Part shown: piece after piece, positions 58-34,682 of the stretch | Layout of the letters: each line of letters opens with the position of its first letter | Numbering within the stretch: position 1 is the first letter of the stretch | The notes under the pieces: model-generated | Database searches by the model: none | What the model was told of the DNA's origin: nothing | Seen by the model: the letters and a program-made list of their open reading frames with translations, nothing else | Translations under genes and position numbers: made by a program | Assembly: GCA_002682825.1 (NCBI GenBank) | Contig: NOKP01000050.1 | Span: 65,063 to 129,062, forward strand | Direction: 5' to 3' | DNA: 64,000 bases | From: Neonectria sp. B-13 | Taxonomy: Eukaryota > Ascomycota > Sordariomycetes > Hypocreales > Nectriaceae

Positions 58-1502
58 TCATCTCCTTACAAGTTCCTTAATACTTTCAGCTATAATAGAA
101 GCAGGATTATGTGTAGCAATCTCCGCTTGTATCTCCAACGCTCTAGTCTTATATCTCTTGTTTGTAAGAACTTCATTAACGGCCTGTCCCAGCTGCTGAA
201 CCGAAGGGTAGGTAGTTCGAAGGTTCACTGCAACACCTGCCCACTCAGCCCTCGCAGCTGTCTCAGGCTTCTCTTCCGTCGTACCGGCAATAACGAGAGG
301 CGTGCCATTATTAAGCGCGCGCTGGAACGACCCGTATCCTCCTGTCGTGATGAAGACGTCAACGTGGGGCAGTATAATGTCATAAGGGATGTAGTCTGCC
401 ACCCGGCAGTTCGAAGGGACCAGCACATCTGATGACAATGTGGCATCTGGTCTCCCCAGTGCGATGACCACGAGGATGTCCGAGCGGTCTTTCAGCGCAG
501 TCATGGTAGAGATGACCAGTTGGTTGAAGTCCATGGCGACCGTTCCTTGGCAGACAAAGACAATCTTTTTCTTGGTGGTTGCGTTGCTGGTAGTGACTTG
601 ATCCCACCATGATGGTCTCTCCCACCTGCCTGTCGTGCCTTCAGAGACAGCCGTAGTAGGATAGCCACCGGCAAAACGCAGAGTGTTTGGAGCGTCACTT
701 CTTGGATACTCGACGCTGGGTGTGCACATTTGTATGAAGCGATCTGGTAGAGTGTAGAGCGAATCAAGCAGGAACTCCGCGTCTGGCTCTAGGGTAGCTC
801 CGACGCTCGCCAGTGCTTCCGCATATGCCGCTTGGGAAGGGGCAAAGAACTGCTTCTGGGCTGCGTTCGCAAGCTTGTTCCGCTCTCTGCCCTCTGGAGA
901 TCTGTCCGGAAGCATGCCAGACCCAAAAGGCGAGTGGTCCATGCTAGTGAGTAGGATAGGGTTGAGGCCGATGGCAATGAAGCCTTCAGGGCGAAGACCT
1001 GGTGCGCCGAGCGTGATGGGCAAGGCGCCAAAGTTCAAGCTCTCGGTCATGAGAATGATGGGCCTGTGCGGATGCTGGGCGCGAAGTGTTTTCAGAGCTC
1101 TCTGGATAGCCTCGTGCTGTGAAGGCAACGATTTGCAGAAGATGTGGATCAAGTCGTGGTTGAAACAGGCTGGTCCTTCCAGATGTTTTTGACCTGCGGG
1201 CCCTTGAGAGAAGAAGTTCCAGGTTAGCTCCGCTTAACTTTGGGAAATGAAGAGAAGATAGACAAATACATACAATCGGTATCGAGATCCCATGACGTGA
1301 GGTCATGAAAGTCGCCATATCCTTCCACCGAGACAAACGAGGCCCCGACAGCCTCGACTTGTGGGCGATATCCGGAACCAGATACAAAGCAGACGTCATA
1401 TTCCAGGGCGACGAGCTGTTTTGCAATGGCGAGCATAGGTATGATGTGTCCCGAAACGGGCGTGCTGCACATTAGCACAAAAGGTTTGTGTTGTAACGCC
1501 AT
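58..1502 (-). CDS. Glycosyltransferase A (GT-B fold, GT1/MGT-like)
   Basis: Two exons, 1502-1274 and 1202-58, give 457 residues. The intron has a GTATGT donor and a CTCAAG acceptor; splicing restores the Asp-Trp junction seen in the paralogue at 33179-34682. The N-terminus carries the GT-B 'SGH' element with the likely catalytic His19. The C-terminal nucleotide-sugar region reads TTGGYGSFQRALNNGTPLV, a variant of the UGT 'HGG..S..EAL..G.P' signature with Thr replacing the usual His. It should transfer a sugar from a UDP-sugar to a small acceptor. An upstream in-frame Met exists, but Met at 1502 matches the start of the paralogue. It lies 3' of the HR-PKS on the same strand, so its likely job is glycosylation of the polyketide aromatic core; C- or O-glycosylation cannot be told from sequence. 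Its 3' end is 57 bases from the window edge. Confidence 0.88.
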
Positions 1503-2058
1503 GGTGGTGGGGTGCAGCACTTGAGGCATAGCGTAGTGGGATGAGTCAGACGACAGGGCAAGGGACTTGGATGGCAACAGAACTTGAGGGACAAGTCGAG
1601 CCAAGTGGAAGGGGAACCCAATCAACCTATATATACTCGAGGAGATCAGTAACACGTATCCCATGCAAGCTTCGATACCTGCATACAACCGGTTGGATGC
1701 GAATCCCGTTCAATCACAAAACCGTGTTGCACAAAGACGGACCTGGCATATGGAATGGACACTACAGTTATACAAGTGTACAAAACGCGTCATTCTCATA
1801 CCAAGAATAGTTCCTCTTTCAATATCTATCTTCGTCACTCCCTGTCTATAGATCGCATAACTATTGACGGCGGTGGCCCGTGTATTGGATAATTACATCC
1901 TGATCCCACTTCGGCCACTTCCCCTTGGAGAACAAACTTCCCTTCCCTGCCGCCCTGCCGTTCCTCTCTTGGGTAAATTATCAGAACTCCTCAATTCAGT
2001 ACACGGAATATGCAGCTTTACCGCATAGAATACGCGATTGTCACACGTGGGAACCATC
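1503..2058 (-). promoter_or_regulatory. Upstream region of glycosyltransferase A
   Basis: This stretch separates the HR-PKS stop codon from the start of glycosyltransferase A. Read on the minus strand, a TATATATA stretch at 1628-1635 lies about 130 bases before the ATG and is a candidate TATA element. No further gene was recognised. Confidence 0.45.
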
Positions 2059-5000
2059 TCATGCGCGGTCTCGCACAATGTCTCTCATGATTCTCGCGGC
2101 ACGGTGGAGCTCTTTCACAAAAGCCGCGGTTCGTTCTTCGGACCCTGCAGTAAGAGAGACAGAAACACTGCGATTGAAATTTAGTCAACTTCCATCAAAT
2201 GATAGGGCCTTTGTCGCAAACGAGTGCATGATCGACTTACCTGTTCTTCTCCGGACTTATGAAGGACCAGAAACCATCCGTATCGGGCATCAAGTGGACA
2301 AAGTCGTCGACGGTCATCTTGCCCTCGAGCGAGTTGGTCTGCGCAAAAATAGGCGGACTCGGACGGCCGAAGAAAACCATGTCACTCAGGAAAGCAGGTT
2401 TGGGTGCCTTGTCGTTGTTCGTTGGCCACAGGTAAGCCAATACCTCAAATACTCGCTGGGAGCTGTGGCCGGTGAGCAGGATCTGTATCCCAGCGTTCAT
2501 CGACTTGGTTGCTTCCAGCAGAAGAGCCCTCAGTGGGGCGTTAGTGCCAGGGTCGGCTTCGTAGTCTTGAACTTGATAGACCCCGGCGGCTGCATCGCAG
2601 AATGCATTGACCGCAGGCGTGGCTCTTTGCATGGCATCGGCGCGGCCAGCGTGGAACAGAGCTCCACTCGTAGGTTCCCAGGAAATCATGTTCTGGCCGA
2701 AGAACATTCGCAGGGCAAGTTGAAAGGTCAGATCAATGACTCCTTTGACGGGTACTCGAGATTGCAGGAGGAAGTCGGTGCCGAACTCATCGAGCTGTTC
2801 TCGGACGTACGTCGACGAGGATGTGGCCTGCCGGTATCTTTCCCGGAGGACTATGGCGTGATCTTCGATATCGGGAGTCATCTGCAAGACGACCTCGTTC
2901 AGCTCCATCTCGGAAGACGAATGGCCGCCGCCTAGCTGGCCGTTGAGACTGGATGCCCCGGCCGGGTGAGCCTCCATAGCGTTGGCGATCCATTCTAGAA
3001 GGCGAGTGGCAGCGGTGCCGTCGAGGATTCCATGCTCGGTAATCAGGCCGGAGCGACCATTTGCGCTCACATAAAACTGTAGGACTTTGTCGAACCAGCG
3101 ATTCGTACCATCGCCGATGTAACCCTGACGTGCGATCTGCTCGGGGGTGTCTGGGCTTCCGGCGTCCAGGCATAAAACGAACATGGCAGAGTCGAGGACG
3201 TGCAAGTACTCGACATTGCTGGGACTCAACGCCAATAGAGTCTCTCTTTTCTGTAAACGGACATGTTAGCATAAACTGGCCGTTCAGTTGGGTCGGGTTA
3301 TGGCCTACCTTGGCCCAAGAGTCTCTTTCATCGGTTGTCAAAAACCCTGAACATACATCATCCCCTTCCACTCGCGAGACGATGGCTTCAAAGGTCGCCT
3401 GAAGCTGTTTGTATGGCACGTCCTTGTCGTCCGCGTCCTGGAGCATCACCTTGAAGACACGGCCTTTCCTCAACACGGCGACATGATCTCGGGCGTTCCC
3501 ATCATCTGGGTTAGGGGTGTAGCTCATCATCTTGTCGCATGTGACCTGCGGTACACGTGTCGAGTTGAACAGCCATCCCCATCCCCACGTACACTCAGGC
3601 CTGCCAGCGATCTCGAGGGGCTCAACCTCGCCGGCATTCACAGCCCGCCTGTAGGAGAGAGCTGCGGTAGTGATGATGGCGGCCCGCTCGGCCTGGGAGT
3701 GCCGTTTACCACGGCTGTCACGCTGTGCTACCATGATGCTGGTCCACGGAGCGACGGGCGCCCTCCTGCACAGGAATCTAGCATCTGTGACGATGTCGGA
3801 AAACCAGGCGTTGGTCGTATCGTGCCCGTGCGTGTTGTACAGGTCTTGAAGGATCTGGCGCGCAGGGCTGTCCGAGGCACGAATGGCCTGGATGTCTCGA
3901 TGAATGGACTCGAGTTGTTGTGGGCTGAAGAGATGTTTGTTCGCCTCGAGCCAGTAGTCAAGTGCACCATCTAGATCCGGCAGCGGCTGAACCGGCAGCT
4001 CTTTGTGAAGTTTGCAACAGTTCTGGCCATGCCGAGGAAGCTTGCTGGAAACTTCATTTCCATTGATAGTAACATTTGCAGCAGCAGCAGCATCCCGCAA
4101 GTCTTCCCGACTTTGAGAAGCAGTGCTTTCTTGTCCGTTGCGGTCATCGTTGGGGCCAGTACCATTGACCTTGTTGAGCTTGAGATTCATCCTCGAAACT
4201 ACGAGTTTGGCCAACGCGAGCATGCTTTGTGCACCAGTGAGCTCGGAGATTTGCAACTGCGACCGGAACGTTTGTCTGATCCAGTTTTTGAGCTCGATGG
4301 TGACGAGAGAGTCCAGCCCGAGAGCCGTGATAGGTATGTCTGGAACGTCGTCGCCGATGAAAGAAGTGAACTTGTCCAGCAGGGCTTGCCTCACCGTGTC
4401 CTCGGCACCGGAAATCGTCTCTGCTTGCTCGACGGCCTGGAGAACGGTTTGCTTCTTGCTGTCGGCGGCACCGTTGTTGGCCGTCTTGCCCCCTTGCCTC
4501 CTCTTGCTGGGGACATGGTCGTATAGCGGATCATCAAGAGCCGACTGACCGAAAGCGTCCTCCATCGTGTCGCGGTCGAAATGCATGAGATGCTGCACGA
4601 CGTGCTGGTTGGCGCGGGCTGGCGGGTTCATGGCGTACTCGAGTGCGGCCAGGACGTCACGAAACGAAACAGAGCCGATGGTGCGGGCAACATCGCTTCC
4701 TTGCTCCAGTGCGCTGGCGACTAGCTGGGAGCCCTCGACAGCCCCAACATTGATGGTGGCATACTTGGTGACGCCGCGCGGGAACTGTTTCCCGGCGTGA
4801 GCAAAGGCGTCTAGGAAGGCATTTCCTGCCGCGTAGTTGCTCTGTGAGGCTGAACCGATGATGCTGGACACGGACGAGAGCATGACGAAGAAGTCGGTTG
4901 TCTCCGGCGAACAGAAGGCCTCGTGCATGTTTAGCGTGCCCTGGACCTTGGGCCTCACCGAGTCTTTCCAATCGTCAACCTCCATGAACTCCAAGGGATG

Positions 5001-8000
5001 GTCCCGGAGGACCGTTGCGCTTTGGACGACGCCTCTGACTGGTGGCAGGCCAAGACGGGCCATCCTCTCGGCGGCACCGCGCGTGCTGTTCTCGTCGCCA
5101 ATGTCGCACTGGACAACGTGGAGACTGCTGCCCAACTTGCTGATGGCCTCCTGGATCTCGACGACGGCCGGCTGCTGGGCCACGGCATCGACATCCCGGC
5201 GGGTGAGGGCGACGACGTGGCCAGCCCCCTTCTCGGCGAGGAATAGGCCCATTCTCTTGCCGAGATCACCAAGCCCGCCACCGATGACATATGTCCCCTC
5301 CTGTTGCAGCCGCAGTGCGGGTGCCTTTGGCCTGGGGGCTTGCACGAGGGTCTGTTCATCGGCAACAAGCACCAGCTTTCCCATGTGTTTCCTCTCGGCG
5401 ATAAGGGAGAAGGCCTGATGAATGCTTGACATGTCCAACGCCGTCACCGGGTACACAGGCTTCAGCAAGCCCTGGTCAACCATGGCGAAGATGTCCCTGA
5501 CGCCACGGATCACCGCTTCGGGTCTTTTCTGGTGCATGTAGAAAGCATCCACGGCGGCGAAGGTCGCTTGCTTGTCGAACTTGGCCATGCTGAGCTGGCC
5601 GCGGCCGAGGATGTCCGCTTTCCCGATCTCGCAGAAAGTGCCGAACGGGGCGAGGCAGTCCCAGCTGTCCCTGAGAAGCTGTCCGGAGAGCGAGTTGAGG
5701 ACCACGTCGACGCCGTTGCCCCGCGTCGTGGCGAGGATTTGTTTCTTGAACTTGCCGGAATGCGACGAGAAGATGTGGTCGTCGGGTATGCTGTACTGAT
5801 CCTGGATCAGCTTCTTCTTTGCGACGCTGCCAACCGTGGCAAACACCTCGGCTCCAGCGAGTTGTGCAAGCTGTATCGCGGCCTGGCCTACGCCACCCGA
5901 ACCTGCGTGAATCAAGACACTCTGGCCCTTCTCTATCCGAGCGACGTGGTTCAGGCTGTACCAAGCGGTAAAGAATACCAGCGCAACGGAGGCTGCGTCG
6001 GCAAAGGTGACGGAGTCTGGGATGGCCACCACATTCTTGCTGTCGACGCGGACCTGGTTGCCGAACGGTGTCACGAACAGGGCCGTGACTCTGTCACCGG
6101 CCTTCCACGATTGCACGTTGGATCCCACGGCCGTGATGACACCGGCCACCTCGCCCGTCATCTGCGTCCCTGGCGTCATCTGGCCCAACGTGACGAGGAC
6201 GTCCTTGAAGTTGACTCCGTACGCCCGAGCCTGGACTTGAACCTCGTCCCGGCCGAGCGGGTCTACCATGTCGTCGTTGTCTACGAAGCGGATGGTTTTA
6301 AGTAAGCCTGGCACCCGAACGTCAAACTTCAGGGGCCGGTCCTTGTCGAGATATCGACAGTCCACCAGAGATGCGTCATCGCTCATGGTTTGCTCCGGGT
6401 TGTTGCGACTCTCGATGTGCGTGGCGAGGCCGTCGTCCGGGATGACTCTTGGGATGGTCAGCTTGCCGTCGCGGATGGCGTACTCGTGCTCCAGCCGGGA
6501 CTCTTCCACCGAAGAAAACGACTGCCTGGCAATTTCTGCCAGCGTCTGCGTGACATGCTGCAGCCCATCCTCGTTGCTGCGAGGCTGGACTGGGTCTTGA
6601 ACGTCAACCGTGATCAACCGTAGCCCGGGATTCTCACGTCGGAGCACCCTGGCCGTGCCGTTGATCATGTTCTTCAGGGCTGTCTTTTTGCCAGACGGCG
6701 GTGAGGCTTGGAAGCTGACCCAAAGGATGTTTCCGCCCTGGAGCAGAAGATTCTTGACCTGTTCAAAAGTCTCGGGGCTAGGATCCAACAGCAGCGGGTG
6801 CTCGGCCGAGTCAATGACAATCACGAGACCATTCGAGTCTTGGTCTTGATCTTGTGCATCCACGGGCCTCGTACCCCAAGCCTCACGGCTACATTTGACG
6901 CCTTTGTTGCCCAAGGAGAGACACATGGCATCTCCAAAGGCAACTTGGGATGCATCATCAGAGTGCCCGAGATGTACCTTGGCTCTTAATGGCATCTTGC
7001 CCACCTCTTGGATTTGGCCATTAGTTGTTTCCGCAGCTGCCGGTAGACCCCGAGCCACAATCACGGTACTGCCGCCGCCCAAACGACCATTTTGTGCTGG
7101 GATGACAAGATCCGTGCCGTTGAAGCCGTGACGCTTCAGACATACGTCCCACTCGGGCACGCTCATTAGGGGCCCATCCAGCGTGCCAAAGACGGCGTTG
7201 TGCGCCGCCGTAACCGCTGTCAGCTCCATGAGAATGAGTCGACCGTCCGGCTTCAGCAGCTTCCGTAGGTGCGCCATGGCCACGTCCATATGGGCCCCGG
7301 CGTACGACAACATAGGGGCCACAATCAGATCGAAGCTGTGGGCAGTGAGCCCTTGGGTGAGAGGGTCGCGCAGTATTTCGAGCGTCTTGAAGTCGATTGG
7401 AGTGGCCCATTCCCCAAACCTGCTGCGCGCACGCTCGAGGAGGCTGGAGGATGCGTTGGTGTAGGTGTACGCAGCCATGAGTGGCCGGTCGTTGCCGCCG
7501 ATGGCCTCCGTGAGCGGCATAGTGGCGCCTCCGGTTCCAACGCCGACCATGAGTATGCTAATGTTTGGAGTCTTGTGAACCAGGGCCTGCGTGTATGCGG
7601 CGATCTGTGCATAGTGGTTGTTGAACAGGGTGTGTTCGGAGTACAGACGCTTAAGCATGTCGTCATGGGCCAAGAGCCCCGAAGCGTCTGCCTTTCCGGT
7701 CAGGATATCCAAGTAGTGCGGTCCGAGGCGGCCCAAGGCTACCCTAACGATATTGTTCGACCTGCTGCTCTGCTCGATGAGGCTGGCTTCGTCTTCGGCA
7801 GTGATCCCCTCCAATAATCCCCCGGCCTCTGTTGTGTCCCACTTGACCATCCAGCTCAACAGTGCGGAGAGATGGGGACTGGATGCTGTAGAGATGCCTT
7901 GCTCGCTCGCGGCCTGGACTGCTCTGTGGATGAAGATTGTCGCGACTGTCTCGTTCAGACGCAGTTGTGCTTCTGCTTCTGCTTCTGCTGGCTGATCGAT

Positions 8001-11000
8001 CGTCTTTCCGTGGTCGACACCGAAGAGTTCGTGGCTTGAAGCACAAGCAATAAAGTCATTTTGTGTCATGTAATCGACATCGGGCTTCCACTCCATGCGG
8101 TACGTCATCTTCTTCTGGACGGCGTCATCTGGGTCTCCCTCCCCGACAGCCTGTGTCCAGATATTGGTGCCTGTGACCACCGGACGAAACGTTCCATCGC
8201 TCCGCTTCTGGTAGGCACAGTAGGAAAAAGAAGCATCTCGCGGGGTGTGCTGGAAATGCTGGAAAGCCACCACCATGTCGGTGCCCGGGGCGCTGTCCAT
8301 GTCAACTGCTACGGATATCTCTCCTAGCATGGTGGGCATGATGGGCGCCATATATCCTTCTTGCCGGAAGCAAACGGGTTCCAGTTGAAAGATGGAGTCG
8401 AAGGTGCTGGGGTGGATGGTATGCGGTTGCATATAGCCTCCGGGCATGTGTTGTGAGATGTCTGGGACGACGATTCTGCCGGTGGCGTACCCCTTGCCAA
8501 CAAAAATCTCCTTCAGGCCCTGGAAGGTCTCGCCGTAATCATTGCCAGATGCCTTTAGATGACGATATGTCTCCGTCGCATCTAGAGAGGTAGGGCAGGC
8601 GGCTTGAACCTCCTGGAGCCATTTGTCTGCAGCTGCCTTTGTCAAGTGGCCAAGGCCATCATCTCGGGCGCTCACGAACTCATCGGCCTGGGACTGAGCA
8701 GTGCCAGCCTCGGGGACAACCGAGTCCCATGAGACGAGGCCGTTGCAGTTGTCGATCCAAGAGTCGTTTAGAGAATCATAGGAGACGACCCGGAAATGCT
8801 CCCAAGGGCTGCCCGCGTGTTGTCGGGAAGGGCTAATGATGAGCTGCAGTTCCACTTCCTGGCCGTGTTTGGGTCCATCGTCGTGTATCACCACGGGGTT
8901 GGCAAAGATGGCATCACGGAAGTTGATATTTGCGATGCGGCCCGGCGTCTTACGCAGCTGAAACAGTTGCTTCATGGCTTCGATGACCATGATCAGGTAG
9001 CCGGCACCCGGGAAGATGACGAAGCCCTCGATGACGTGGTCCCGGAGCCATGGAATGGCAGCCAAGCTGACGTGATACCTCCACCGCGGCTCGTACGTCG
9101 AACTGCCCACTTCGAAGAGGCCGAGAAGATCGTGGGGAGGGAAAGGGCGTAGGCGGTTCCCCTTGCTGAGCCGTGACTCGCGCCAATACTTGGTGTGATC
9201 CCACGGATACGATGGAAGATCGCCGACGACCCGGCGACGAGAGCTTGCACTCTTCGTCGACTCTCCGGCATCTAGCTGGATCGGACTGCCGGATTCGAAG
9301 ACCTTGGCTACCAAGGCTAGGACGGTGTCTACCGCGCTTTTGTTTCGAACAAGGCACGGGACGTAGTTGTACTGGAAGGAAGCGCTCGAAGCTAACTTGA
9401 AGTTGGAGTCCGATAGCGATTGTCTCAGGGGTCCCGAGAGCGCCGCATGAGGACCAACTTCGATCAACAGGTTGGCGGCTGCGGTGGGATACAAGTCGGA
9501 CAAGTGCTGTGCGACCAGTTGAGAAGCGGCACCGAACTTGACTTGAGACACCAGGTTAGACGCCCAGTAAGACGGCCCAAAGCCAGATCGTTTGCGGGCG
9601 CCCGTGACGGATGAATAGAAGGCCACATCCTCTCGTGGGGTGCCATGCGTCAAACCGTCCAGGGACGAAAGATATGCCGGCGCCACCACCTCCATGTGGT
9701 GAGAGTGATAAGCCGTGTCAACCATAAGTCTCCTATTGAAGACCGATGCCTTGTCCAGCGCCGCCTTGAGTTCCAGCACAGCCTCCAAGTCTCCGGAGAT
9801 GGTGGTGCTCTCGGGGCTGTTGACACAGGCCACCACCACCTTGCCATTGCCATTGTGGCTGTCGAGCTGCTTGATCCGCTTCTTGATGGCATCTTCTCCC
9901 TCCCCCACGGCCAGCATCCCCCCTGGCGTCGCGTTCAGGGCCTTGGCCTTGGCGGAACAGACACCTCTCGTGTAGGCAACTCGCATGGCGGCCTCCCTCG
10001 TCAAGACCCCCGCTGCATAGGCGGCGGCGACTTCTCCCGAGCTGTGGCCGCACACGGCCTGGGGCCGGATGCCGTACGTCGTGGCGAGCAGGTCGACGAG
10101 GGCAATCTGTACCGCCGTCGTCATTGGCTGGGCAAACCTTGCTTCCCCGAGCCGCGACGACTCCTTGTCCCGGGAGAGCTCCTCGACAAGGTCCCATTCG
10201 CATCCCAGCGTCTTTACGATCTGGCTGCAGAGTGCAATGGAAGATGCAAACTCGCGAGACTCGGAGCCCGTCAGCAGCTCCCGCCCCATGGCAAACCACT
10301 GGGCGCCTTGCCCTGTGAAGACAAAAGATAAGGCGACGTCCCGCGCTGACTTCACGGGTCGGAGTGTGGCGTCTCCCAGTGCCTCTTGGAGTTCCTGGAT
10401 ATTGCTCGATACGACGCTGCAGCGCCATCGTAGCTTCGACCTGCGCGTGTTCAGAGTGTAGACTAGGTCGGCGAAGGAGGCCGACTTGCCCTGGTCGGAT
10501 GCGAGCCATTGTCGCAGGTCGGAAACCACACTGCGAAGAGATGACTCCGAGTTTGCCGACAAGACTACGAGCTTCTTTCCTTCGGCCTCGTGTTCGTGAT
10601 TGTGTTCGTGGCCGTTGACGGGGCGGTTTTCGATGACATGCCCATCGCCGTTGCCGTTGACATGCCCATCGCCGTTGCCGTTGCCATTGACATGCCCACG
10701 CACATCCGGGAGCTCAGCATCATATGCCTCAAGAATGGCATGGACATTCGATCCGCCGTAGCCAAAGCTGTTCACAGACACGCGTCTGGGCCCCGAGTGT
10801 CCTTGTGGCGTGAGCGTGGTGAGTTGCAGTGGCACCTTGAGTCCTCTCTCCTCAAGACGAAGCGATGATTTTGCGTGGATGAAGTTGAGCTGCGGGGGGA
10901 TCTGGTTCTTCTTGAGAACCATGATGGCTTTGATCGCGCTCGCCATGCCACTGGCCGCCTCCAGGTGTCCAATATTGGTCTTGATGCTGCCAATCGGCAA

Positions 11001-12166
11001 GTCGGAGACTCGTCCTGCTCCACGTCCAAACACCCTGCCGATGGAACCAACTTCGGCACTATCGCCCGCCACAGTTCCCGTTCCGTGGCTCTCGACAAAC
11101 AACGTCTCGCGGGGGTCAAGGCCGGCCCTGGCATAGACCGAACGGGTCAAGGCCTCCTGTGCGTCGCCGTTGGGCAAGAAAATGCCTGCCGTCTTGCCGT
11201 CGTGGCCGGCCCCTGATTCCACCATTACTGCGTGGATATGGTCGCCATCTGCCACAGCTCTGTCAAGGCGCTTCAGCACGAGGACACCAATGCCTTCACC
11301 TCGAGCGTAGCCAGCACCGCGGTCGTCGAAAGTGTAACACCTCCCGTCTTTGTTGGTAAGTTTCCTAGGCATGGTGGTCAGTCCAGCTCCAGGCAATGAT
11401 TCGAAAAGCTCTGGGAATGGCATTGAAATGGATCACTTACGACATGACGGCGGATTGGTCAGGGCTCAGCAGTAGTTGACTGGCCCCAGCCAGAGCTACT
11501 GTAGCCTCGTCTGCCCTCAGTGTTTGACAGGCTTGGTGCAGGGCCATAAGGCCACCAGACTGTCATGTATTGCACCTGGTCAGCAAAGCAGCTGACTAAC
11601 GAGTCTGGTAGATATGCGGACTAAGTACTTACACATCCAGTGTCCAATGTATTGGAACTTCCCTTCAGATCCAAGACATACGAGATCCTGTTGGCCAGAA
11701 TGGCCTCTCCAGATCCGATGATGTGATTCATATCAACCTGGGCCATATCTCTATATCCCATTCTGTCGTAATCTCTCGCAAACATTGCCATGTGCACCGA
11801 GGTGTCCGAGCCACGCATGTTCTCGATAGGCAGACCGGCATTCTCGAGTGCCTCGTAAGTCACCTCGAGCAGAAACCTCTGCTGAGGGTCAATGGTCTCG
11901 GCTTCGACGCCAGGGATATTAAAGAATCCTGCGTCGAATGCTGAGACGTCCTCGTCCAAGAAGTAGGCGTGGCTGAAATTCGTCGAGTCTTTTGCGTCTG
12001 GGTTCTTGCTGTAGAAGGATTTCCAGTCCCACCGGTCCTTGGGCACCTCTTTTCGTCCGTCTCTGCCCTCGGCTAGCAGGGACCACAGGTTTTCTGGACT
12101 GTCCGCGCCGCCTGGAAGGCGACATGCCATTCCAATGACGGCGATCCGGCCTTCGGACTTGGCCAT
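2059..12166 (-). CDS. Highly reducing PKS with C-terminal carnitine-acyltransferase domain
   Basis: Five exons (12166-11633, 11559-11441, 11364-3309, 3250-2241, 2167-2059) sum to 9828 nt, 3275 residues, with all phases consistent. Domains in order: KS with Cys178 in DTGCSGG (canonical DTACSS) and later HGTGT and NIGHLE motifs; AT with GHSSGEV near 658; DH with HVIEGFVIFP near 994; a C-methyltransferase-like region with VGVGTGGAT near 1492; complete ER with LIHAGSGGVG near 2040; KR with YVIGGGLGDLG and Tyr2395; ACP with Ser2570 in LGLDSLV; then about 600 residues of choline/carnitine acyltransferase fold with His2976 in EHGILDG. It should build a methyl-branched, partly reduced chain and release it by transfer to an alcohol. 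The HR-PKS Tv6-931 is precedent for a cAT domain that esterifies polyols. The last exon uses a CTAAAT branch and CGCAG acceptor. That choice alone keeps the C-terminal KELHRAARIMRDIV helix in frame. Intron 1 splits the KS directly after the active-site Cys. Confidence 0.95.
10634..10700. repeat. In-frame 24-bp tandem repeat in HR-PKS linker
   Basis: Two exact 24-bp units (10635-10658 and 10659-10682) and a partial third encode Gly-Asn-Asp-His-Val octapeptides. They form a low-complexity linker between the KS and AT parts of the HR-PKS. The unit length is a multiple of three, so copy-number change would keep the frame. Confidence 0.8.
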
Positions 12167-20272: not shown

Positions 20273-20610
20273 TACGGCCTACAAATTACCTAGAAAGACT
20301 TGTTGGTTCAGTCTCATAGAACCTTGTTAGCTTAAATCTTTTATTTCGGACCTAGACCGAAGAAAACGGCATGAAACTCGACTTCTCACACTCCCTTGCG
20401 CAATCCCTCTCATGAGGAATGGCTTAGTTCTCACTAGCACGGATGGACATCTGAATCTATTAAAGATACACTTCAGCAAGAAATTCTCTTAGATACGTGT
20501 TAAGCTGATTCTAGGCTGGCCTAACGCTCAAAATGCTGCATACATATGTCTATTTACATGAAAGCAGTTGTCATAAGCCAGATTCATATTACAATCAGAT
20601 GCGCCCAGCT
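20273..20610. other. Tail-to-tail spacer, NR-PKS and P450
   Basis: 338 bases between two convergent stop codons. It should hold both 3' untranslated regions. Nothing else was recognised. Confidence 0.5.
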
Positions 20611-23720: not shown

Positions 23721-26700
23721 ATGTCGCTTGACAGCTACTCCAACGTCTGTCGGGACGCTACATTCGGCCCTACCGTGCCGCGAATAGCAGAATGTCGTGG
23801 CGGCTTCGATTTTACAGGTATTCATATGTTCATTGATAGCCTCAAGGCCTGAAACCAATTGATTTGCGGGTAGTCACTTTCGAAGAAAGTATTTTGTCCA
23901 TAGGCCCAGCATGCCTGCTTTTCGTTATCCTTCCATGGAGGCTGCGTTTCCTCTGGAGAGGAACATGCAAGACTCAGAGTACTTGGTTGCATGAGATGAA
24001 GTTGGTACGCTGCCTTATCATTCACCCATCTCATTTCCAAGTCGAGCGTAACTAACAAACCCAACATAGCTTGGTTACGCGACTCTAGGCGTTCTACAAA
24101 TTGCTCTTTTGGCTCTATTCTCAAAATCTCAAACTGGATACCGTGCCGTGTTCATCTCCTCCGCAACGATTCAGGTGTGCACCAGTCTCCTCCTCGCCGT
24201 CCTTTCGCACTGGGAACACCGTAATGCCGTCCGACCATCGTTCCTGATATCAGCCTTTCTGTTTTTGACTTCTATTTTGGACGCGGCCAGAGCCAGGACT
24301 CAAGCCCTAATCGAAGGACAACACGTCATGGCTAGCATACTCATTACAATCGTTGTTGCAAAGTTGCTACTTTTCTTGATTGAGACCAGAGGGAAGACGC
24401 GGATCCTGTTACCCGAGTACTCGAAAATATCATCAGAGCTACGCAGTAGCCTCTTTTCCCGCGCTTTCTTCATCTGGTTGATCCCGGTACTGTCTGCGGG
24501 GTTCAACGGTATCCTTTCCTCAGAAGACCTCCCAGCCGTCAACGAGAAACTATCCTCAGAGACACTGGCTGCTATAGTTGAGTCAAGATGGAAAAATAGT
24601 CAGTTATCGACCCCCAAGTAACGAGTGTGGCCTCGTGTATGTTCCCAGGCTGACTGTAAGGAGGCATCTCAAAGGGTGCCCACGCGCTGATGCTCGACGT
24701 TCTTCTCAGTTTCCCCAAGGAGGTCTCGATCATCCTCATTTCATACACTATTCAGGTTGGACTACAGGTCTGTCAGCCATTCCTGATCCAAGAACTAGTC
24801 ACATTTCTGGAGTCGCCAACGGCATCGATGAACGTTGGGTTCGGCCTTCTTGGGGGTTTCTTTTGTGTTTCAATTCTGAACGCGGTAAGTACCTATTAAC
24901 TCCACACAACCACCCGATAGGGAGCTGACGAAGACGGCGGAAGTTGCTCATCCCTTGGTGCTTTCACTACATAAGTCGTCTTATGATCATGGCTCGTGGC
25001 GCACTCGTCTCCATGATCTACTCAAAGCTTCTACAATTCAGGGGCAACGATGTCCACCGAATGACTGCCTTCACTTTGATGACCGCCGATGTGGAAAAGA
25101 TTGTTGATGTCTGGTGGAGGCTGTTGGAGCCATGGTCCTGCCTCCTTCAAATAAGTATCGCCACCTACTTGCTTTATCGGCAGCTAGGAGCGGTTTGTTG
25201 CGTCCCAATCCTTGTTATATTCTGTGAGTGGAAACTATAATGATGGTCCTTCTGGCTTGTACTTGACTCTCGCGCTCATCATTTGCGGTAGTAACCTTTA
25301 CCCTCGTGGCATTTGCGGGCTCCAAGGTTCCGCGTCACCAAGACGCTTGGTTCCAGGCCATCGAAAAAAGAATCAACCTGACCGCCCACACCATTGGCTC
25401 TCTACAGTCAGTCAAACTTCTTGGGTTGTCTCGGAGAATGGAGGCCAAAATCCAAGAGAAGCGACGGGATGAGCTACAGACTTCTCAAAAGTTCAGACTT
25501 AGCAACTGTTTCGCAATGGCATCTGGTTAGAACTCCTACCAAACTACTCGACTTTGTCACCGTTTGTCTAATATCGTCTCAACCTCAGCTTATGCCCCCC
25601 AAAGCCTGGCACCTCTCGTCACGTTTGGGGCATACTCGATCATGAGGATGGTCTCAAATCAGCCCAAGCTTTCCGTGAAGACAGCAGTCACAAGTCTTTC
25701 CATCCTAAATCTTATATCCACTCCGGCGATGCAACTCCTCCTCGCAATACCGATGGGAGCGCAGGCGATCGGAAGCTTTACCAGAATCCAATCTTTTCTT
25801 CAGCTCTCTGGAATACCTGGTCTAACAACTACGGCAACAAGCAGCTCCAATGACAGTGATGCCAGCGAGGCTCGAGAGAAGAATGCCGAGCGCGATCCAA
25901 TACGGCCAGCACAATATTCACAGCAGCCTCTTGGAAACGGTGTGACTGGGGAAAAATCACTCTCTCTCTCAGCTGTCTGTTTCACACCCAAGTCTCTCAT
26001 TGCAATCACCGGGCCAGTTGGCTGTGGCAAGTCCACGGTTCTTAGGGGCTTACTAACGTCGGATGAAGCACATGAATCGTGTCCATTCCCGTCCAAAGAC
26101 ATAGCATACTGTTCGCAAACACCCTGGATTTACGAGGGAACCATTCGAGACAACATCATTGGCCAGGCAGAGTTGGATAATCCGTGGTATCAATCCGTCA
26201 TTCGGGATTGCGAGCTCGACGTGGATATAGGCCGCACGCCTGGAGGCGACGCTGCTGCGGTCGGCAGCAGAGGATCGAGACTAAGTGGCGGACAGAGACA
26301 GCGAATTGTGAGTGACGACGTGATCATGGAGTAACAACCTCTGACGCTGACATCCTTATTAGGCCATTGCTCGAGCCTTGTACTCCAACAAGCCGCGGGT
26401 CATTTTGGACGATGTCACAAGCGCCCTTGATGGCCGCACGCTGTCTGCATTGGCAGACAAGGTCTTTGGCAAGAACGGTATCCTTCGCTCCAAGGGAGCG
26501 TCTGTAGTGCTGGCCACTCACGCAGTGCAGATTCTGCAGCTGATGGACCAGGTATTGTTAATGGACAAGCATGGCGAAATCATCGACTCGGGCACATACG
26601 AGCAACTTGCAGAACGGCACCAATCCTTTGTCCAGCGCCAGATCCTGGACCCTTCAAAACTGGCGTCGGAGACAGAAACATCAGTCCTTGGACTTGAACC

Positions 26701-29028
26701 CGAAGCTGGTCTAGGAGAGTACCAGGCTCGAGCCAAGGACCTGCGAAGGCAGAAAGGTGACTGGCGGTCGTACGCATTCTACCTCGGCTCTATGGGCTGG
26801 CTTAAACTTTCCATATTCGTTCTCGGTGCTCTCTTCTACGTCGTATTCAATGCCATCTTTGTGATCTGGCTCACTTGGTGGGCCGAAGATACGGATGGTA
26901 GCCATGGCCTTGGATACTGGCTTGGCCTGTATGCTACTTGGGCCGCGCTGATCACGCTGGGAATGCTTTTTACACCAATGTGAGTCTCAGGCAGTTCATG
27001 GCCGGGATACTTGATGTTCTTTCTAACTTGGACAAGTTTCTTCTTTACCAAGTTGGCTTCCAAAGCATCCAAGACCATGCATGCAGAACTGCTTGCGGCT
27101 GCTATGAGGTAAGTTCTACTCGCTGGAGGCTCATCCTTGTAATTACGCATCTGCTTGTCGCTAATACCAATGACTACCAGCGCCCCAATGTCAACCATTT
27201 CGAGTACGGGAGACATAGGCACTCTAGTGAACCGGTACGTTTGCGAGGTTATCTCGACAATTCTGCCGTCGCGACTAACCATTTGAACAGGTTCAGCCAA
27301 GACATCCGTCTTTGTGACTGGCAGTTGCCTCTCAACATGCTGTTGACTTTGCTTGGTGAGCATATCCCGGCGCTGGGTCATGAGATTCCAACAAAGACGA
27401 GCATTTCTGACTTGCGCATGTTCTAGCTCTCCTCGCATGTCTCTCAAGCATCGGCATTGCAGTAGCGGCCGTCTCGTACATGGCTATATGCATACCGGTA
27501 CTTGCCGCCGTCTTGTATATTCTCCAGCTGCTGTATTTGCGTACTTCCAGACAATTGCGACTCCTCGAGTTAGTCCTCATCTGCTTCTCCGACCAGATGA
27601 AAACTCTTTACCAAAGGCTGACATCTACTTTAATTGACCAATAGAATAGAATTAAAGGCACCACTTGTGTCTTTGTTTCTCGATACAATCCAGGGTATCA
27701 CAACCATCCATGCTTTTGGTTGGAGCCAGGCATATATCCAGAAGAGCTTTTCCCTCCTGAACTCGTCGCAGAAGCCCTACTACCTCCTTTTCTGTGTCCA
27801 ACGGTGGCTGATTCTGGTGCTCGCACTCATAGTCACTGGCATGGAGGTAGTCGTCGTAGGCCTGGCTATAAGCCTACGAACACGAGTCAGCGCCGGCTTG
27901 GTAGGCCTGGCCGTTGTCCAGGTTACGACGCTGACAAAAGGCCTGAGCGACCTTGTGATGCAGTGGACCGAGATGGAAACGTCTCTGGGAGCCGTGTCAC
28001 GTACCTACAGGTTTACGCACGAGACTCCACGAGAGCATTGCCCGGGTCAAGGGGAAACTGCGTTTCCTGATGAGTGGCCTTCGAGTGGTAGTATCAGTTT
28101 TGAAGACGTCAGTGCGACCTACAAGTAAGTGGATATTTCCTCGGATAATGTCCATCAGGCTAACGTGGAAAAGCCAACACACGCAAGGCAGTTCGACTAT
28201 AGCCTTGAAGAACGTTACATTCTCTGTGAAACCTGGCGAGAGTGTTGGGATATGTGGGAGAACTGGCAGGTTGGTTCTTCACGGGCACCCTTTCGCCGTA
28301 AAATGTGACTAACCATGGCTTCACGCCACAGTGGCAAAAGTAGTCTCATGGCTGCTCTGTTACGCCTGCTACCGTGCCACCAAGGGCGCATACTCATCGA
28401 CGGCACTGACATCTCGACTGTGGACCCCGAGATCGTTCGCTCCAAGCTCAATTGCGTCACACAAGAACCTTTCTTGTTCGATGGAACGATACGGGAGAAT
28501 CTGAGCCCCTGGGGCGACCAAGTCTCGGAATATGAGATGGTGCAGTCCCTGGTGCAAGTCGACTTGTGGAGCAAAGTAACATCACTCGGAGGGTTAGATG
28601 TGGTACTAGGAGATGAGTCACTTTCACACGGTCAGAGGCAACTCTTCTGCCTCGCGCGAGCTCTCTTACGGAAGAGCAAAGTCCTGATACTGGACGAGCC
28701 AACAGGCCAGTAAGTGTTGACGGTTTCGGAACCTCTTATCACGTTTGCCGTATTCTAATGTGCTATTAGCATCGACGCCACCACAGATATTACAATCCAG
28801 CGGGTCATCAAAGAAGGGTTTCCGGGCCGAACGATTATCATGATCGCCCATCGTCTGCAAAGCTTGGTCGAATTCGACACAGTCATGGTGCTTGAATCTG
28901 GTCGTCTCATTGAAATTGGACCGCCAAAGTCTTTGCTTAATGACCCCGATTCATCATTCAGCACACTTTACCGTTCGGGCGAAGGTGAAGGCCAGATTGG
29001 GGCTGATGGAATTGAGACGGGGCCATAG
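23721..29028 (+). CDS. ABC transporter, ABCC (MRP) type, full length
   Basis: Sixteen exons starting at 23721 sum to 4377 nt, 1458 residues, the normal size for a full ABCC pump: 23721-23817, 23874-24004, 24070-24598, 24661-24884, 24944-25223, 25292-25525, 25589-26307, 26363-26979, 27037-27108, 27181-27234, 27291-27355, 27427-27568, 27645-28124, 28174-28269, 28332-28709, 28770-29028. The N-terminus has the extra hydrophobic TMD0-like segment. NBD1 has Walker A GPVGCGKST, signature LSGGQRQR and Walker B RVILDDVTSALD. NBD2 has Walker A GRTGSGKSS, signature LSHGQRQ and Walker B ILDEPTG with IAHRL. All phases agree. The intron ending at 28173 was preferred over a 34-nt alternative. Its place inside the cluster suggests export of, or self-protection against, the final product at the plasma or vacuolar membrane. 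Confidence 0.93.
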
Positions 29029-29875: not shown

Positions 29876-30956
29876 ATGCAACAGAGAATTGACGTGCATT
29901 GCCATGCCGTGGCTCCAGGGTATCGCCAGTATGCACTCGACCACGGCCATGAGAAGCCTGATGGGATGCCTGCCCTCCCTGTACGTACTCTTGCTAGATA
30001 CTATTCACGCATCAATGTAGCGTGCCCTGGATCTCACTGACGACATACGTGGGCAGGCGTGGAGCCCTGAGCAGCACATTGCCCTCATGAAGCAGCTGAA
30101 CATCAGCAAGTCCATCTTGAGCATCACATCGCCAGGAACACACCTCACGCCCAACGATAGCGGACGTGCTGTACGCATGACCCGCCAAAGCAACGAGGAG
30201 CTGTCTGCCATCTGCGCCGATCACCCCTCGCACTTTCGGTTCTTTGCCTCGCTGCCACTGCCGTTGGTCGATGAGTCCATCGCCGAAATCGACCATGCAA
30301 TAGACAAGCTCGCGGCAGTAGGCTTTGCGGTTCTGTCCAACGCAAATGGGGTCTATCTTGGGGACCAGGCACTTGATCCCGTCTTCGCGCATCTCAACTC
30401 TCGCAAGGCTGTCTTGTTCATCCATCCCACCACTTGCAATTTGCTTGCCGCAACAGGACCCGATTCCCAGCAGGAAGCGCAGACAGTCAAACCACTCGAC
30501 CAGTATCCCCGTCCTATGATGGAGTTTATGTTTGATGAGACTCGTGCCATCGTCAACCTACTCCTCTCAGGCACTGTGGCAAAGTATCCTCACATCACTT
30601 TCATCATGTCGCATTGCGGTTGCACGTTGCCCTCCATCGTGGATCGCATCGGCGCTTTTGCCACTGTCACAACGGGAGGGGAGAGCCAGAGCGCCGAGTT
30701 TCGGAGATTACTTCGAGAGAGGTTCTTCTTTGATCTGGCCGGCTTCCCTTTTCCCAACCAGATCCATGGCCTCCTCAGGATTCTAGGGGATGGGGGGGAG
30801 CAGAGGTTGGTCTACGGAACGGACTATCCTTTTACCCCAGAGAAGATTGTGGTTGGCCTGGCAGAGCAAATGAAGGCGGGCTGTGAGGAACTTTTCGACG
30901 AAGGCCGACGGAACGATGTGTATCTAAATAACGCGGAGAGGCTCCTGGGTCTTTGA
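29876..30956 (+). CDS. ACMSD-like metal-dependent decarboxylase (amidohydrolase superfamily)
   Basis: Two exons, 29876-29980 and 30057-30956, give 334 residues, the usual ACMSD size. Exon 1 supplies the start (MQQRIDVHCHA) with the HxH metal site, and splicing to GCAG|GCG yields MPALPAWSPEQH, a family hallmark. Further metal or catalytic residues are the His in FIHPTT, the His in MSHCGC and the Asp in YGTDYPF. Relatives remove carboxylates from aromatic rings, for example 6-methylsalicylate, orsellinate or amino-carboxymuconate semialdehyde. In this setting it likely decarboxylates the aromatic acid made by the NR-PKS to a resorcinol. The substrate is inferred from context. It ends tail-to-tail with the acyltransferase, 99 bases away. 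Confidence 0.9.
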
Positions 30957-31055
30957 ATATCACTGAAATAGTTCGTTTAGAAAACTCTGCAGTCGTCCCA
31001 GGCAACATCCAAATTGTGCAAAAAGCCAATTCTAACAAGGCCGTGCCTAGAAAAA

Positions 31056-32420
31056 CTAAATAATGGCGCCGGCACCTGGTACGTAGTCTATCAACAGCAT
31101 GCCAGCTCCGAAGGAGGCGGCAACTTCAATATATCCGGCGGTTGCGGTCATGACGAGAGGCCCAAGGTTCTGCCATGTTTCTGAATCCATCCAGGCTGGT
31201 CTCTTCCCTCCCCGGCACATGAGTGAGTGCAACTTCTGCCCCACGAACCACGAGATAGGTGAGTGAAGCAGGTACGCTGCGTAAGCGTAACGAGGGGACC
31301 ACAACCTCTGTTTTCCAGGTTTGTTGTACTTCCGCTCCCAAAGGGACATGAAGGCCGGCCCAACGGTGTTGAACGTGAACTCGTTCCAGAGGGCGAACAG
31401 TGCTGCGTCGGCAGTCCAGCCCGATAACTGCAGGCTGCTTTCAATATCGGCTGGCGGCGAGTCAGTGCCCTTGGCGTCTTTGTCTTTGGTGTTCTCACTC
31501 GTCTTGCTGGCCTTCTTGGACCTCAGCCATCCGGGAAGGAAGACGATGGGCAACGCTGCCAGAGAAATGGCGCTGGCCTTGGCCATTGACAGCTTGCCGA
31601 GGGGTCCAGACTGGTTGTCAAAGAGGCTCGTCATGCGAGGCTTTCCCAGATGGGAAGCCATGAAGCCGAGCACGTAGGCATAAATATGCTGAGGGAGGTA
31701 GTATGGCTGAACATTGACGATGGGCAGTTCATAGCCAAAGGGAAACCGGGTGCTGACCAAGAACCTGGACGCAGCAACCACCAGCCAGCCCCAGCGACAC
31801 AGCTGGCCGTAAAACGAGGCCAGTTTCGAAAACTCGGATGACTTGGCTTGCCCGCCGTTGAAGAGACGGAGGCAACGCTGGAGGACAAGTGCGCAGAGGT
31901 CGAAGATGAGGAGTGTCATGGTGTACCAGACAGTCCCCACCCCGGGCGTCAGCCAGCCCTTGAAGTCGCGAACGGCTTTCCAGTAGTCCTTGAGGTTGGA
32001 GCCGAGGCTGCCTTCGAGCCGGGGACGCAGCGCGATGGCCTGCAGCGGCTCCAGGAAGACCGAGTACAGCACCGCGGGAAGTCCCAGCCTCAGGAGCTTG
32101 CTCGTCACGAACTCCCGCCACGAACCCTTTGACAGCGACTTGGCCGTCAGATTCCCAGACAGCCAGAAGAACTGGCCCAAGCCGTACGCGTAATGGAACG
32201 CGACGTAGGGCAATAGGATCGGTGATGCTTTGGTGAAGCCGGCAGGGTGGGGGTGAGTGCCACCGCCGCCATATGCCGCCGCCGTGTGGTTGAGGATGAC
32301 AATTGTCGTCATGACACCTCTCAGGTTGTCGAGCCAATACTTGCGACCACCACCGGTGGGAACAACGGAATTTGGCGGCGCCATCTTGTTCGCCGCTTGA
32401 GATAGAGCAGTATCACTCAC
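31056..32420 (-). CDS. Membrane acyltransferase, acyltransferase-3 family
   Basis: A single exon of 454 residues with about ten hydrophobic segments. The family motif is at the start: KYWLDNLRGVMTTIVILNHTA, with the conserved Arg and His. FHYAYGLGQFFWLSG also fits the OafA/NolL-type acyltransferase-3 fold. A charged loop (KKASKTSENTKDKDAK) separates two membrane halves. Family members move acetyl or longer acyl groups onto sugars, sterols or polyketides across a membrane. Next to two glycosyltransferases, it is a candidate to acylate a sugar hydroxyl of the pathway glycoside. It is divergently arranged with glycosyltransferase B. Donor and acceptor are not visible in the sequence. Confidence 0.9.
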   Translation of the reverse strand: MSDTALSQAANKMAPPNSVVPTGGGRKYWLDNLRGVMTTIVILNHTAAAYGGGGTHPHPAGFTKASPILLPYVAFHYAYGLGQFFWLSGNLTAKSLSKGSWREFVTSKLLRLGLPAVLYSVFLEPLQAIALRPRLEGSLGSNLKDYWKAVRDFKGWLTPGVGTVWYTMTLLIFDLCALVLQRCLRLFNGGQAKSSEFSKLASFYGQLCRWGWLVVAASRFLVSTRFPFGYELPIVNVQPYYLPQHIYAYVLGFMASHLGKPRMTSLFDNQSGPLGKLSMAKASAISLAALPIVFLPGWLRSKKASKTSENTKDKDAKGTDSPPADIESSLQLSGWTADAALFALWNEFTFNTVGPAFMSLWERKYNKPGKQRLWSPRYAYAAYLLHSPISWFVGQKLHSLMCRGGKRPAWMDSETWQNLGPLVMTATAGYIEVAASFGAGMLLIDYVPGAGAII

Positions 32421-33178
32421 TTACTGTTGCGGTCTTGAAGTTGATGGGCTCCGAAAAGTGCAGTGGGAGAAGGGACTTGCTAGTAGATGCGGGGAAGTAG
32501 GGGCAAATGTGGAGAGCTCCTTATTGTTGTCAATCCGCTCTAGTAGTATCTGGATAGGTTGTGAAAGCGTAGCGGGAGAGCCGAGGCATTTTGTACGGTG
32601 CCTTGCCGACAAGGAGTTGAGTTGGTTGAGATCCGAACATAAGCACAAAGTACAAGTACGTATCGGTACTTGATCCTCAAGGGAGGGAGGGGGTGTGTCA
32701 ATCACAGCATGGTCAGGGATCTCGAATCTGGCTTGCTTGTAGCCGACGCCTTTCGCGGACTGACTGTGGGGTGCAGACCAGACTGAATTGGGCTTACCCT
32801 CCGACTGGCCCGCTCCATCGCCCGTGCTCTGTAGGTCCAAGTGTCTTGGAGAGAGAAAGATGAAGTTCATACAGCCCAGACACTGTACTGTACTACACTG
32901 CACTGTACTGTGTAGGAACACAGGCTGACAGGTTCTCCAGATCCAGGTGATTCTTGTCTCAAGACCCCCGGCCCTCCGAGTAACCGTGCGTTCACAAGTC
33001 TCCTGCAGCTGGTACTTCAAGGTCAGGAAGGTCTACACTGTGTTTCTCAGTCGCTCAAAGTCTTGGCCTCTCCTGTCCTCGCGACGTCAGACATCCTCGT
33101 TGTTCCTGTTTCGCCAAATCGTCCTCTCAAACCTCTCCAGTGCCCCATCTCCTACTTACTCACTCAGCAGCAGCCGTC
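32421..33178. promoter_or_regulatory. Divergent spacer, acyltransferase and glycosyltransferase B
   Basis: 758 bases holding both promoters. It contains two CTAGTAG words (32480-32486, 32540-32546) like those before the NR-PKS. It also has a short tandem repeat of CACTGTACTG-like units at 32881-32911. Their role is not known. Confidence 0.4.
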
Positions 33179-34682
33179 ATGGCTCCCCTCGCAAAGCCAC
33201 TGGTCGTCTTGACCTGTACTCCGGGCACGGGTCATGCCAATCCCATGAAGACTATTGCCAAGGTAGTCAAACTTTCTTACAAATTCCTCGTCATCAAACA
33301 CTGACGTATCGACAGGCCCTTGTTCTTGAAGGGTACCAAGTCACAGCTGTTTCTTCTAGCGCCTACCGGGAGCACTTCGAGGAAGCTGGATGCAGCTACG
33401 TTGCCATCCAGGGCTATGGAGACTACGCAGACGAGGACCGTGACACGAAATGGCCCGAGAGGCTTTCCATGCCGCCTGGACCAGAGCAGTTTGCTTGGAC
33501 CATTGAGCACAGCTTCATCAAAGTCATACCCGACCAGCACGTCGCCATCCAGAAGGCCATCACGATGCTGAAGGAGCAGCATCCTGGCAGACCTGTTGTT
33601 CTGCTCAACGAGTCTGCCTTCTTGGGCTCGCTGCCCCTCATGAGAGGTGCAAGAGGTGTGAAACCCGACGGCTTCATTGGTATTGGCATCAATCCCATAT
33701 CTCTGAGCAGCGTGGATACCGCTCCCTATGGGACCGGTCTGCCACCCCCTACGTCTGCTGCGTATGTAATGGCCATTTCTTTTGACCATCAAAACATGAA
33801 TGTTACCCCCCGACACGTCTCTGAGTGCTAACTGCTTTGCGCAGCGAGGCCGCCCAGTATGCAGCAATGCTGGAGGGGCTCAAATCCATCTTTTCAAAGG
33901 CACAAACAGCCTTCGATGACATTTTGAGAGACCTTGGTGGAGAATCAGCCGATGGCTTCTTCGCCGATGCGCCCTTCCTGTGGCCCAATCGCTTCTTACA
34001 GATGTGCCCGCCCTCGATGATGTATCCGAGGAGCGATGCGCCAAAGACCATCCGGTTCGCCGGAGGAATGCCGAAGCTCCCAAAGCCGGCCGACACCACA
34101 GTCTTGTCGTCGGAGAAACCCGCGTGGTGGTGGACCGACGTCGCGAGCAACCCGGCCAAAAAGGACGTCGTCTTTGTCTGCCAGGGCACCGTCCGCATGG
34201 ACTGGAACGACATCGTCATACCGACGATGGAGGCACTCAAGGACCGTCCAAACACGCTGGTCGTCGTCGCGCTTGGCAAGCGGGGAGCGACACTAGACTC
34301 GAGCATCCTCGTGCCCGAGAACGCACGTGTTGCAGATTATCTTCCCTTCGATGACATTCTCCCGCTGTCTTCCGTTTTTGTTGGAAATGGCGCGTATGGC
34401 GGTGTTCGTCCCAGCCTTGCGCATGGAACGCCTCTCGTGGTTGCAGGAGATAGCGAGGATAAGCCCGAGATGTGTGCCATAGCCGAGTGGGCTGGTGTGG
34501 CTGTCAATCTCAGGACGGGCAACCCGACGAGTAAAGCTCTTCGGGCCGGCGTTGACGAGGTCCTCTCTAATCCCAAGTATACGGAGGCTGCCCAGAGGGT
34601 TCAAGCAGAGATGAAGGCCTCTGACCCTATTAGAGTCATTGCGGAGAATATTGATGAAGTAGTTGCTGGAGTTCAAGTTTGA
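33179..34682 (+). CDS. Glycosyltransferase B (paralogue of A)
   Basis: Three exons (33179-33262, 33316-33761, 33845-34682) give 455 residues, two fewer than glycosyltransferase A, with which it aligns end to end. The N-terminus has CTPGTGHANPM with His19. Shared blocks include the PPSMMYPRSDAPKTIRFAGG region and WAGVAVNLRTGNP. The donor-binding motif reads GNGAYGGVRPSLAHGTPLV, whereas A has TTGGYGSFQRALNNGTPLV, so the two may use different sugars or acceptors. It marks the right border of the cluster: everything beyond is remnant or unrelated. In a pathway with two sugars, A and B would act in sequence; the order is unknown. Confidence 0.9.

Follow-up and report, generated by a model that had tools for sequence, protein, structure and literature searches.

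A candidate papulacandin-type gene cluster with two polyketide synthases in Neonectria sp. B-13

Eight genes at one locus

The stretch of DNA discussed here, called the window, comprises 64,000 nucleotides of the ascomycete Neonectria sp. B-13 (Nectriaceae, Hypocreales; contig NOKP01000050.1 of assembly GCA_002682825.1, positions 65,063 to 129,062). Positions 58-34682 of the window hold eight predicted intact genes, in the order glycosyltransferase 1 (GT1, minus strand), highly reducing polyketide synthase (HR-PKS, minus), non-reducing polyketide synthase (NR-PKS, plus), cytochrome P450 (minus), ABC transporter (plus), ACMSD-like metal-dependent decarboxylase (plus), AT3 membrane acyltransferase (minus) and glycosyltransferase 2 (GT2, plus). 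The same eight had been named in a first-pass annotation made from the sequence alone, and each was found in place with the domains expected of it in Pfam. They are a real, conserved cluster, as is seen in the genes themselves, in their domains and motif states, and in the linkage of four of them in other fungi. We put at roughly 75% the probability that this is a papulacandin-type cluster, in which the two PKSs would work in parallel, one making an aromatic core and the other a long acyl chain, which the carnitine-acyltransferase (cAT) domain of that second synthase would pass to a sugar of the glycoside.

Gene models were produced by a splice-aware predictor trained on the long open reading frames of the window itself, with introns predicted, and were then corrected by hand; domains were called on the predicted proteins with Pfam and NCBIfam. 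The nearest relatives of the cluster proteins come from Dactylonectria and Stylonectria, with 82-92% identity.

Linkage of the genes in other fungi

How far is the set kept together outside Neonectria? Homologs of the HR-PKS, the NR-PKS and the GTs were taken as the best 120 matches to each, so that absence in what follows means absence among the matches listed, and a shared contig was judged from equal contig size, which is a proxy for contig identity. The matches include 59 HR-PKSs of at least 52% identity, 57 of them usable for the contig test, and 45 NR-PKSs of at least 50%, of which 43 are usable. Twenty-seven of the 57 close HR-PKS matches share a contig with a close NR-PKS (14), GT1 (24) or GT2 (7), and as a control none of the 58 weaker HR-PKS matches (below 52%) does so. 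Seen from the other synthase, 30 of the 43 NR-PKS matches at or above 50% share a contig with GT1 or GT2, and none of the 75 rows below 50% does.

All four markers lie on one contig in Dactylonectria macrodidyma, Coniochaeta ligniaria, Fusarium sp. NRRL 66182, Cercophora sp. LCS_1, F. beomiforme and Apodospora peruviana. The locus tags of Fusarium sp. NRRL 66182 (7769 for GT1, 7768 for the HR-PKS, 7767 for the NR-PKS and 7762 for GT2) follow the order of the window and leave four tags for the four remaining genes; those of Cercophora sp. LCS_1 (7921, 7922, 7925 and 7928, respectively) also leave four tags between, placed differently from those in Fusarium. In Stylonectria norvegica one annotated protein (P0002) is an HR-PKS fused to a GT, which is expected if the two genes adjoin.

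The aromatic core

The NR-PKS (13593-20272, plus strand, 2059 aa; homolog P0121, 87%) carries SAT, KS, AT, a dehydratase fold of the PT type, ACP and thioesterase domains in Pfam, and its PT domain is also recognised above the cut-off by TIGR04532 in NCBIfam. On a tree it groups with P0143 of Fusarium graminearum (58% identity) and P0141 of F. pseudograminearum, nested in a Fusarium branch in which the neighbouring F. poae and F. sporotrichioides have GT2 on the contig of the NR-PKS. In tables of PMC4198257 and PMC3814326, FGSG_03964 is PKS28, the same as pks14, and the PKS28 cluster is tabulated for orsellinic acid/orcinol. P0143, the closest F. graminearum NR-PKS among the matches listed, is probably this PKS14, that is, the orsellinic acid/orcinol enzyme, and for the window's NR-PKS we propose an orsellinate-type synthase. 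Both of these enzymes, from F. graminearum and from F. pseudograminearum, show the SAT motif of the window's NR-PKS, and neither species has an HR-PKS of at least 52% identity or a GT partner among the matches listed. Their NR-PKS is possibly a relic of the present cluster, reduced so that it now stops at orcinol.

The SAT motif of the window reads GFSSG, as it does in 39 of the 45 listed NR-PKS rows of at least 50% identity, and a cysteine stands there in all nine rows at 43-49%. Serine in place of cysteine was considered as a diagnostic of this family and dropped, because GFSSG is also found in 22 of the 66 more distant rows.

The decarboxylase gene (29876-30956, plus strand, 334 aa) consists of two exons, 29876-29980 and 30057-30956, and matches PF04909 (Amidohydro_2). 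The first-pass annotation was right about the gene, and its open reading frame starting at 30087 lacked the first exon, which carries the metal-binding motif DVHCH (HxH). ACMSD and gamma-resorcylate decarboxylases are among its relatives of solved structure, the best match, 2f6k, being a hydrolase with no assigned function; NCBIfam yields no name for the protein. We propose that it decarboxylates orsellinate to give orcinol, and the earlier suggestion of an orsellinate-type NR-PKS followed by such an enzyme agrees with the domains found and with the grouping of the NR-PKS with the probable PKS14 ortholog.

The P450 (20611-22629, minus strand, 540 aa; PF00067, E 9.6e-84) is likewise proposed, as it was before, to hydroxylate the aryl methyl group. 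For the papulacandin spiroketal the anomeric carbon has to be oxidised as well, a step that had been overlooked.

Release of the long chain by the cAT domain

The HR-PKS (2237-12166, minus strand, 3195 aa; homolog P0001, 88%) has the Pfam domain order KS-AT-DH-MT-ER-KR-ACP-cAT. What had been called a C-terminal acyltransferase is indeed present, and is specifically a cAT domain (2237-3980, minus strand), matched in two pieces by PF00755 (Carn_acyltransf). Its EHxxxDG motif, with the catalytic histidine, aligns with the EH..DG of CPT2; of 15 paired rows 14 retain the motif and one has a gap there. Terminal cAT domains are known from other HR-PKSs, and here the cAT is proposed to move the chain from the ACP to a hydroxyl group of the sugar. 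A precedent established by experiment is LtbA, in which the chain leaves as an ester of the glycoside glucinol and the cAT is needed for this release (PMC10901484). Because the cAT is conserved and LtbA offloads onto a glycoside, the chain of the HR-PKS would more probably go to the sugar than to the NR-PKS, so that the parallel working of the two synthases, as first suggested, is preferred. A self-releasing HR-PKS that esterifies a glycoside is in itself no novelty, since LtbA already does so.

LtbA, of the luteodienoside A pathway, and Tv6-931 share with the window's HR-PKS the domain order ending in cAT. As far as the available part of PMC10901484 describes it, LtbA has an active gem-dimethylating methyltransferase and a GT partner resembling family 2, with no NR-PKS partner, unlike the window. 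The fusapyrone genes FPY1 and FPY2 (PMC10512364) also place a cAT-bearing HR-PKS beside a proposed C-glycosyltransferase, as in the window; as far as that source describes it, the cluster has no NR-PKS and the sugar sits on a pyrone, in which it differs.

An eroded methyltransferase

The methyltransferase (MT) domain of the HR-PKS (7070-7550, minus strand, limits approximate) is degenerate when its motifs are compared with those of relatives. It reads MLSYAG where intact relatives have VLHAT and TNAS where they have TDIS, and a GWW segment is missing. The histidine of VLHAT, which we take to be the catalytic residue, is absent in 30 of 59 readable rows (the window and all 13 Fusarium rows belong here) and present in 29, among them Cercophora, Colletotrichum, Podospora australis and Apiospora hydei. 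These rows are the window and 58 of its 59 close relatives, the remaining one (P0032) having no MT segment, and P0033 (MVSHEG) is counted among the histidine-bearing ones with doubt.

On a tree of the HR-PKS built without the MT columns, from which five distant rows were left out, the state of the histidine changes at least twice. It was lost separately in Apodospora and Rhypophila, so that not all members of the order Sordariales belong to the branched type. The ratio of MT to ER divergence is 2.13 in the main clade without the histidine (378 pairs) against 1.07 in the rows that bear it (378 of 406 pairs), where MT identities come from local alignments and those of other domains from global ones, and pairs sharing too few columns were excluded. 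Judged by this faster divergence, the MT domain is under relaxed constraint. Since the MT is degenerate, the long chain of the window's product is predicted to be unbranched, as in the 13 Fusarium relatives, and the methyl-branched chain foreseen by the first-pass annotation finds no support.

Sugars, second acyl group and export

GT1 (58-1502, minus strand, 454 aa; exons 1274-1502 and 58-1193) and GT2 (33179-34682, plus strand, 455 aa) are paralogous glycosyltransferases of the UGT type, both matching PF06722/PF00201 and 48% identical to each other. Among orthologs of GT1 are P0243 of Dactylonectria (91%) and P0276 of F. sambucinum (76%). The 120 listed GT matches divide into 68 on the GT1 side, 28 on the GT2 side (55-92% identity) and 24 that are about equidistant (44-51%); the last look as if they descended from before the duplication of GT1 and GT2. 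The earlier claim of two paralogs is thus borne out, each having its own line of orthologs kept together. That GT1 is a C-glucosyltransferase and GT2 a galactosyltransferase is a guess as far as the sugars are concerned, and the nearest solved relatives are, by name only, bacterial O-glycosylating enzymes.

The AT3 protein (31056-32384, minus strand, 426 aa) matches PF01757 (Acyl_transf_3) and, far under the cut-off, MdoC in NCBIfam; a search for a relative of solved structure found none. A second O-acylation of a sugar is proposed for it, and the PF01757 match agrees with the second acyltransferase suggested before. The ABC transporter (23996-29028, plus strand, 1375 aa in the corrected model) has two membrane and two ATPase stretches in an ABCC-like layout and is proposed to be an exporter. 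Its exon 25589-26307 is uninterrupted and contains the Walker A motif GPVGCGKST; the Pfam scan had used a shorter model of this gene.

Surroundings of the cluster

Beyond GT1, the 5′ flank holds a reverse-transcriptase open reading frame and an alpha-L-arabinofuranosidase B gene (2064-4211 and 7497-9017 of the flanking piece), and these likely mark a cluster border upstream of GT1. Past the cluster, at 44441-60448 of the window, lie genes for an MFS transporter, an aldo/keto reductase, a Fungal_trans regulator, a tannase/feruloyl esterase and a zinc alcohol dehydrogenase. When a cluster transcription factor was sought by eye in the window, the sole Fungal_trans match among the scanned models was that at 52773-56094, 18 kb past GT2, and nothing ties this regulator to the cluster.

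The source assembly counts 60.9 Mb in 123 contigs. In five of these (C55, C36, C105, C20 and C114) equally scoring matches mirror each other on the two strands, and their coordinates add up to a constant (for example 473154 in C55, 728214 in C105 and 1576193 in C114); such contigs resemble long palindromes, which may have arisen in assembly.

A papulacandin-type product

Papulacandins were described in 1977 and inhibit beta-1,3-glucan synthase, which is also the target of echinocandins; they are reported from Apiospora sphaerosperma, Monochaetia dimorphospora, Tainosphaeria simplex and Garciamycella (Sordariales). Fusacandins and saricandin, of the same class, come from Fusarium, including Fusarium sambucinum (PMC10142451). 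Relatives of the gene set were found in Apiospora, in Fusarium, in Seiridium (Sporocadaceae, the family of Monochaetia) and in Cercophora (Sordariales), besides the GT1 ortholog in F. sambucinum. One check proposed for the first-pass annotation was whether the set is absent from producers of such compounds; the comparison covers the level of genus, family or order (Apiospora, Fusarium, Sporocadaceae, Sordariales), and at that level relatives of the set are present. Together with the domain set and the linkage, these carrier taxa support a papulacandin-type product, as had been supposed.

The structures of papulacandin D, papulacandin G and Mer-WF3010 (PMC12824588) correspond item by item to the eight enzymes: the core is a resorcinol, the sugars are glucose and galactose, and a long polyene acyl chain is accompanied by another, shorter acyl group. 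This comparison is made by structure and not by genes. In papulacandin G the long chain, borne on the glucose, is oxygenated at C7, has a 2,4-diene and three more olefinic protons, and bears methyl groups at C8 and C14; the galactose carries an octanoyl group (PMC12824588). Every one of these features has a candidate enzyme in the cluster. The long chains of the three compounds are methylated at C8 and C14, whereas the window's HR-PKS has a degenerate MT; the chain differs among members of the class, in which the methyl-branched papulacandins form a subgroup. The Fusarium relatives of the HR-PKS have lost the MT as well; a search of the literature for the acyl chains of fusacandin, saricandin and chaetiacandin gave no structures, and that of fusacandin may be unbranched, a point given no weight here. 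Fusacandin B has three sugars (PMC7641802), one more than the two GTs of the window would give in the simplest scheme.

A pathway may be imagined as follows. The NR-PKS would build orsellinic acid from acetate and malonate, and the decarboxylase would convert it into orcinol, to whose ring GT1 would link glucose through a C-C bond. The P450 would oxidise the ring methyl, and oxidation of the anomeric carbon, by the P450 or by another enzyme, would let the spiroketal close. GT2 would then attach galactose, the cAT would transfer the HR-PKS chain from the ACP to a hydroxyl of the glucose, AT3 would place the shorter acyl group on the galactose, and the ABC pump would export the finished product.

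In targeted searches of the literature, most of it seen at the level of listings, no gene cluster named for papulacandins turned up. The compound class and offloading by cAT are known; what appears new is the combination of a cAT-bearing HR-PKS with two GTs, AT3 and an NR-PKS of the orsellinate type, which is not named in the literature found. Other sources cited are PMC5996196, PMC3388860, PMC8880415, PMC12422058, PMC12790562, PMC10682982, PMC12389444 and PMC4865484.

Weighing the alternatives

Could the NR-PKS instead take over the HR-PKS chain through its SAT domain and build an alkyl-resorcylate, to be decarboxylated and glycosylated afterwards? The two synthases are divergent neighbours, which is the usual layout of collaborating pairs, and the SAT domain looks complete. 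The HR-PKS of such a pair is not known to have its own release domain, whereas here a conserved cAT is present, and the F. graminearum and F. pseudograminearum enzymes keep the same SAT motif with no close HR-PKS among the matches listed, the former being probably the orsellinic acid/orcinol enzyme. The SAT motif itself, shared as it is with distant rows, does not decide between hand-off and parallel working. On balance we regard serial hand-off as improbable. Much the same standing is given to an acylated O-glycoside of orcinol or orsellinic acid in place of a C-glycosidic spiroketal: C- and O-glycosyltransferases of this fold are indistinguishable from sequence here, and an O-glycosidic bond made by GT1 would suit the names of its closest solved relatives, but the carrier fungi match the sources of papulacandins, and the P450 and decarboxylase suit a hydroxymethyl-resorcinol core.

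Still less credible is the adjacency of two unrelated clusters, one for orcinol (NR-PKS, decarboxylase and P450) and one for a sugar ester (HR-PKS with its cAT, the GTs and AT3). Stachybotrys does pair the HR-PKS with the GTs, with the NR-PKS missing among the matches listed, and F. graminearum shows the reverse; against this, the four markers share one contig in six species of several orders, and in the window the two sets are interleaved, the NR-PKS, P450 and decarboxylase lying between GT1/HR-PKS and AT3/GT2.

Several points weigh against the papulacandin-type, parallel reading that we prefer. The cluster has a single P450 where two oxidations are required. The isolated cAT of LtbA gave no product in vitro (PMC10901484), and P0143 is linked to FGSG_03964 otherwise than by accession. 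Thirty of the 57 close HR-PKS matches listed share no contig with a partner, many of them being metagenome fragments, and the tracing in other genomes covers the HR-PKS, NR-PKS, GT1 and GT2, the P450, ABC transporter, decarboxylase and AT3 being inferred from gaps in the tags. The correlation of protein distances with those of the HR-PKS (Mantel r 0.93 for 15 HR-PKS/NR-PKS pairs, 0.92 for 12 with GT1 and 0.97 for 8 with GT2), which counts in favour of a unit, would be given equally by plain vertical descent. In Stachybotrys chartarum GT1, HR-PKS and GT2 are consecutive (S7711_06084-06086) with no NR-PKS of at least 50% among the matches listed, and this set may use another aromatic acceptor. 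The MT of Apiospora hydei keeps its histidine with motif I altered in an incomplete gene model, so that the contrast of branched and unbranched chains is not clean there. A spare glucan synthase, sought in the genome as self-protection, was not seen: the search gave one distinct gene only (two mirrored matches on one contig).

Implications

It might be possible to go further, and here we are tentative: the cluster could be none other than the papulacandin pathway, passed down whole among the Sordariomycetes, in which the HR-PKS makes both acyl chains and its cAT places the long one on sugar, an MT once lost divides producers of branched from those of unbranched chains, and the orcinol cluster of F. 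graminearum is what remained after loss of the HR-PKS and the sugar enzymes. With a conserved gene set in hand, the papulacandin pathway could be tested and its producers found from genomes, and the chain and sugar pattern would become predictable from sequence, beginning with the state of the MT. Reading the eight genes as one cluster also offers a reason for the free orcinol of F. graminearum.

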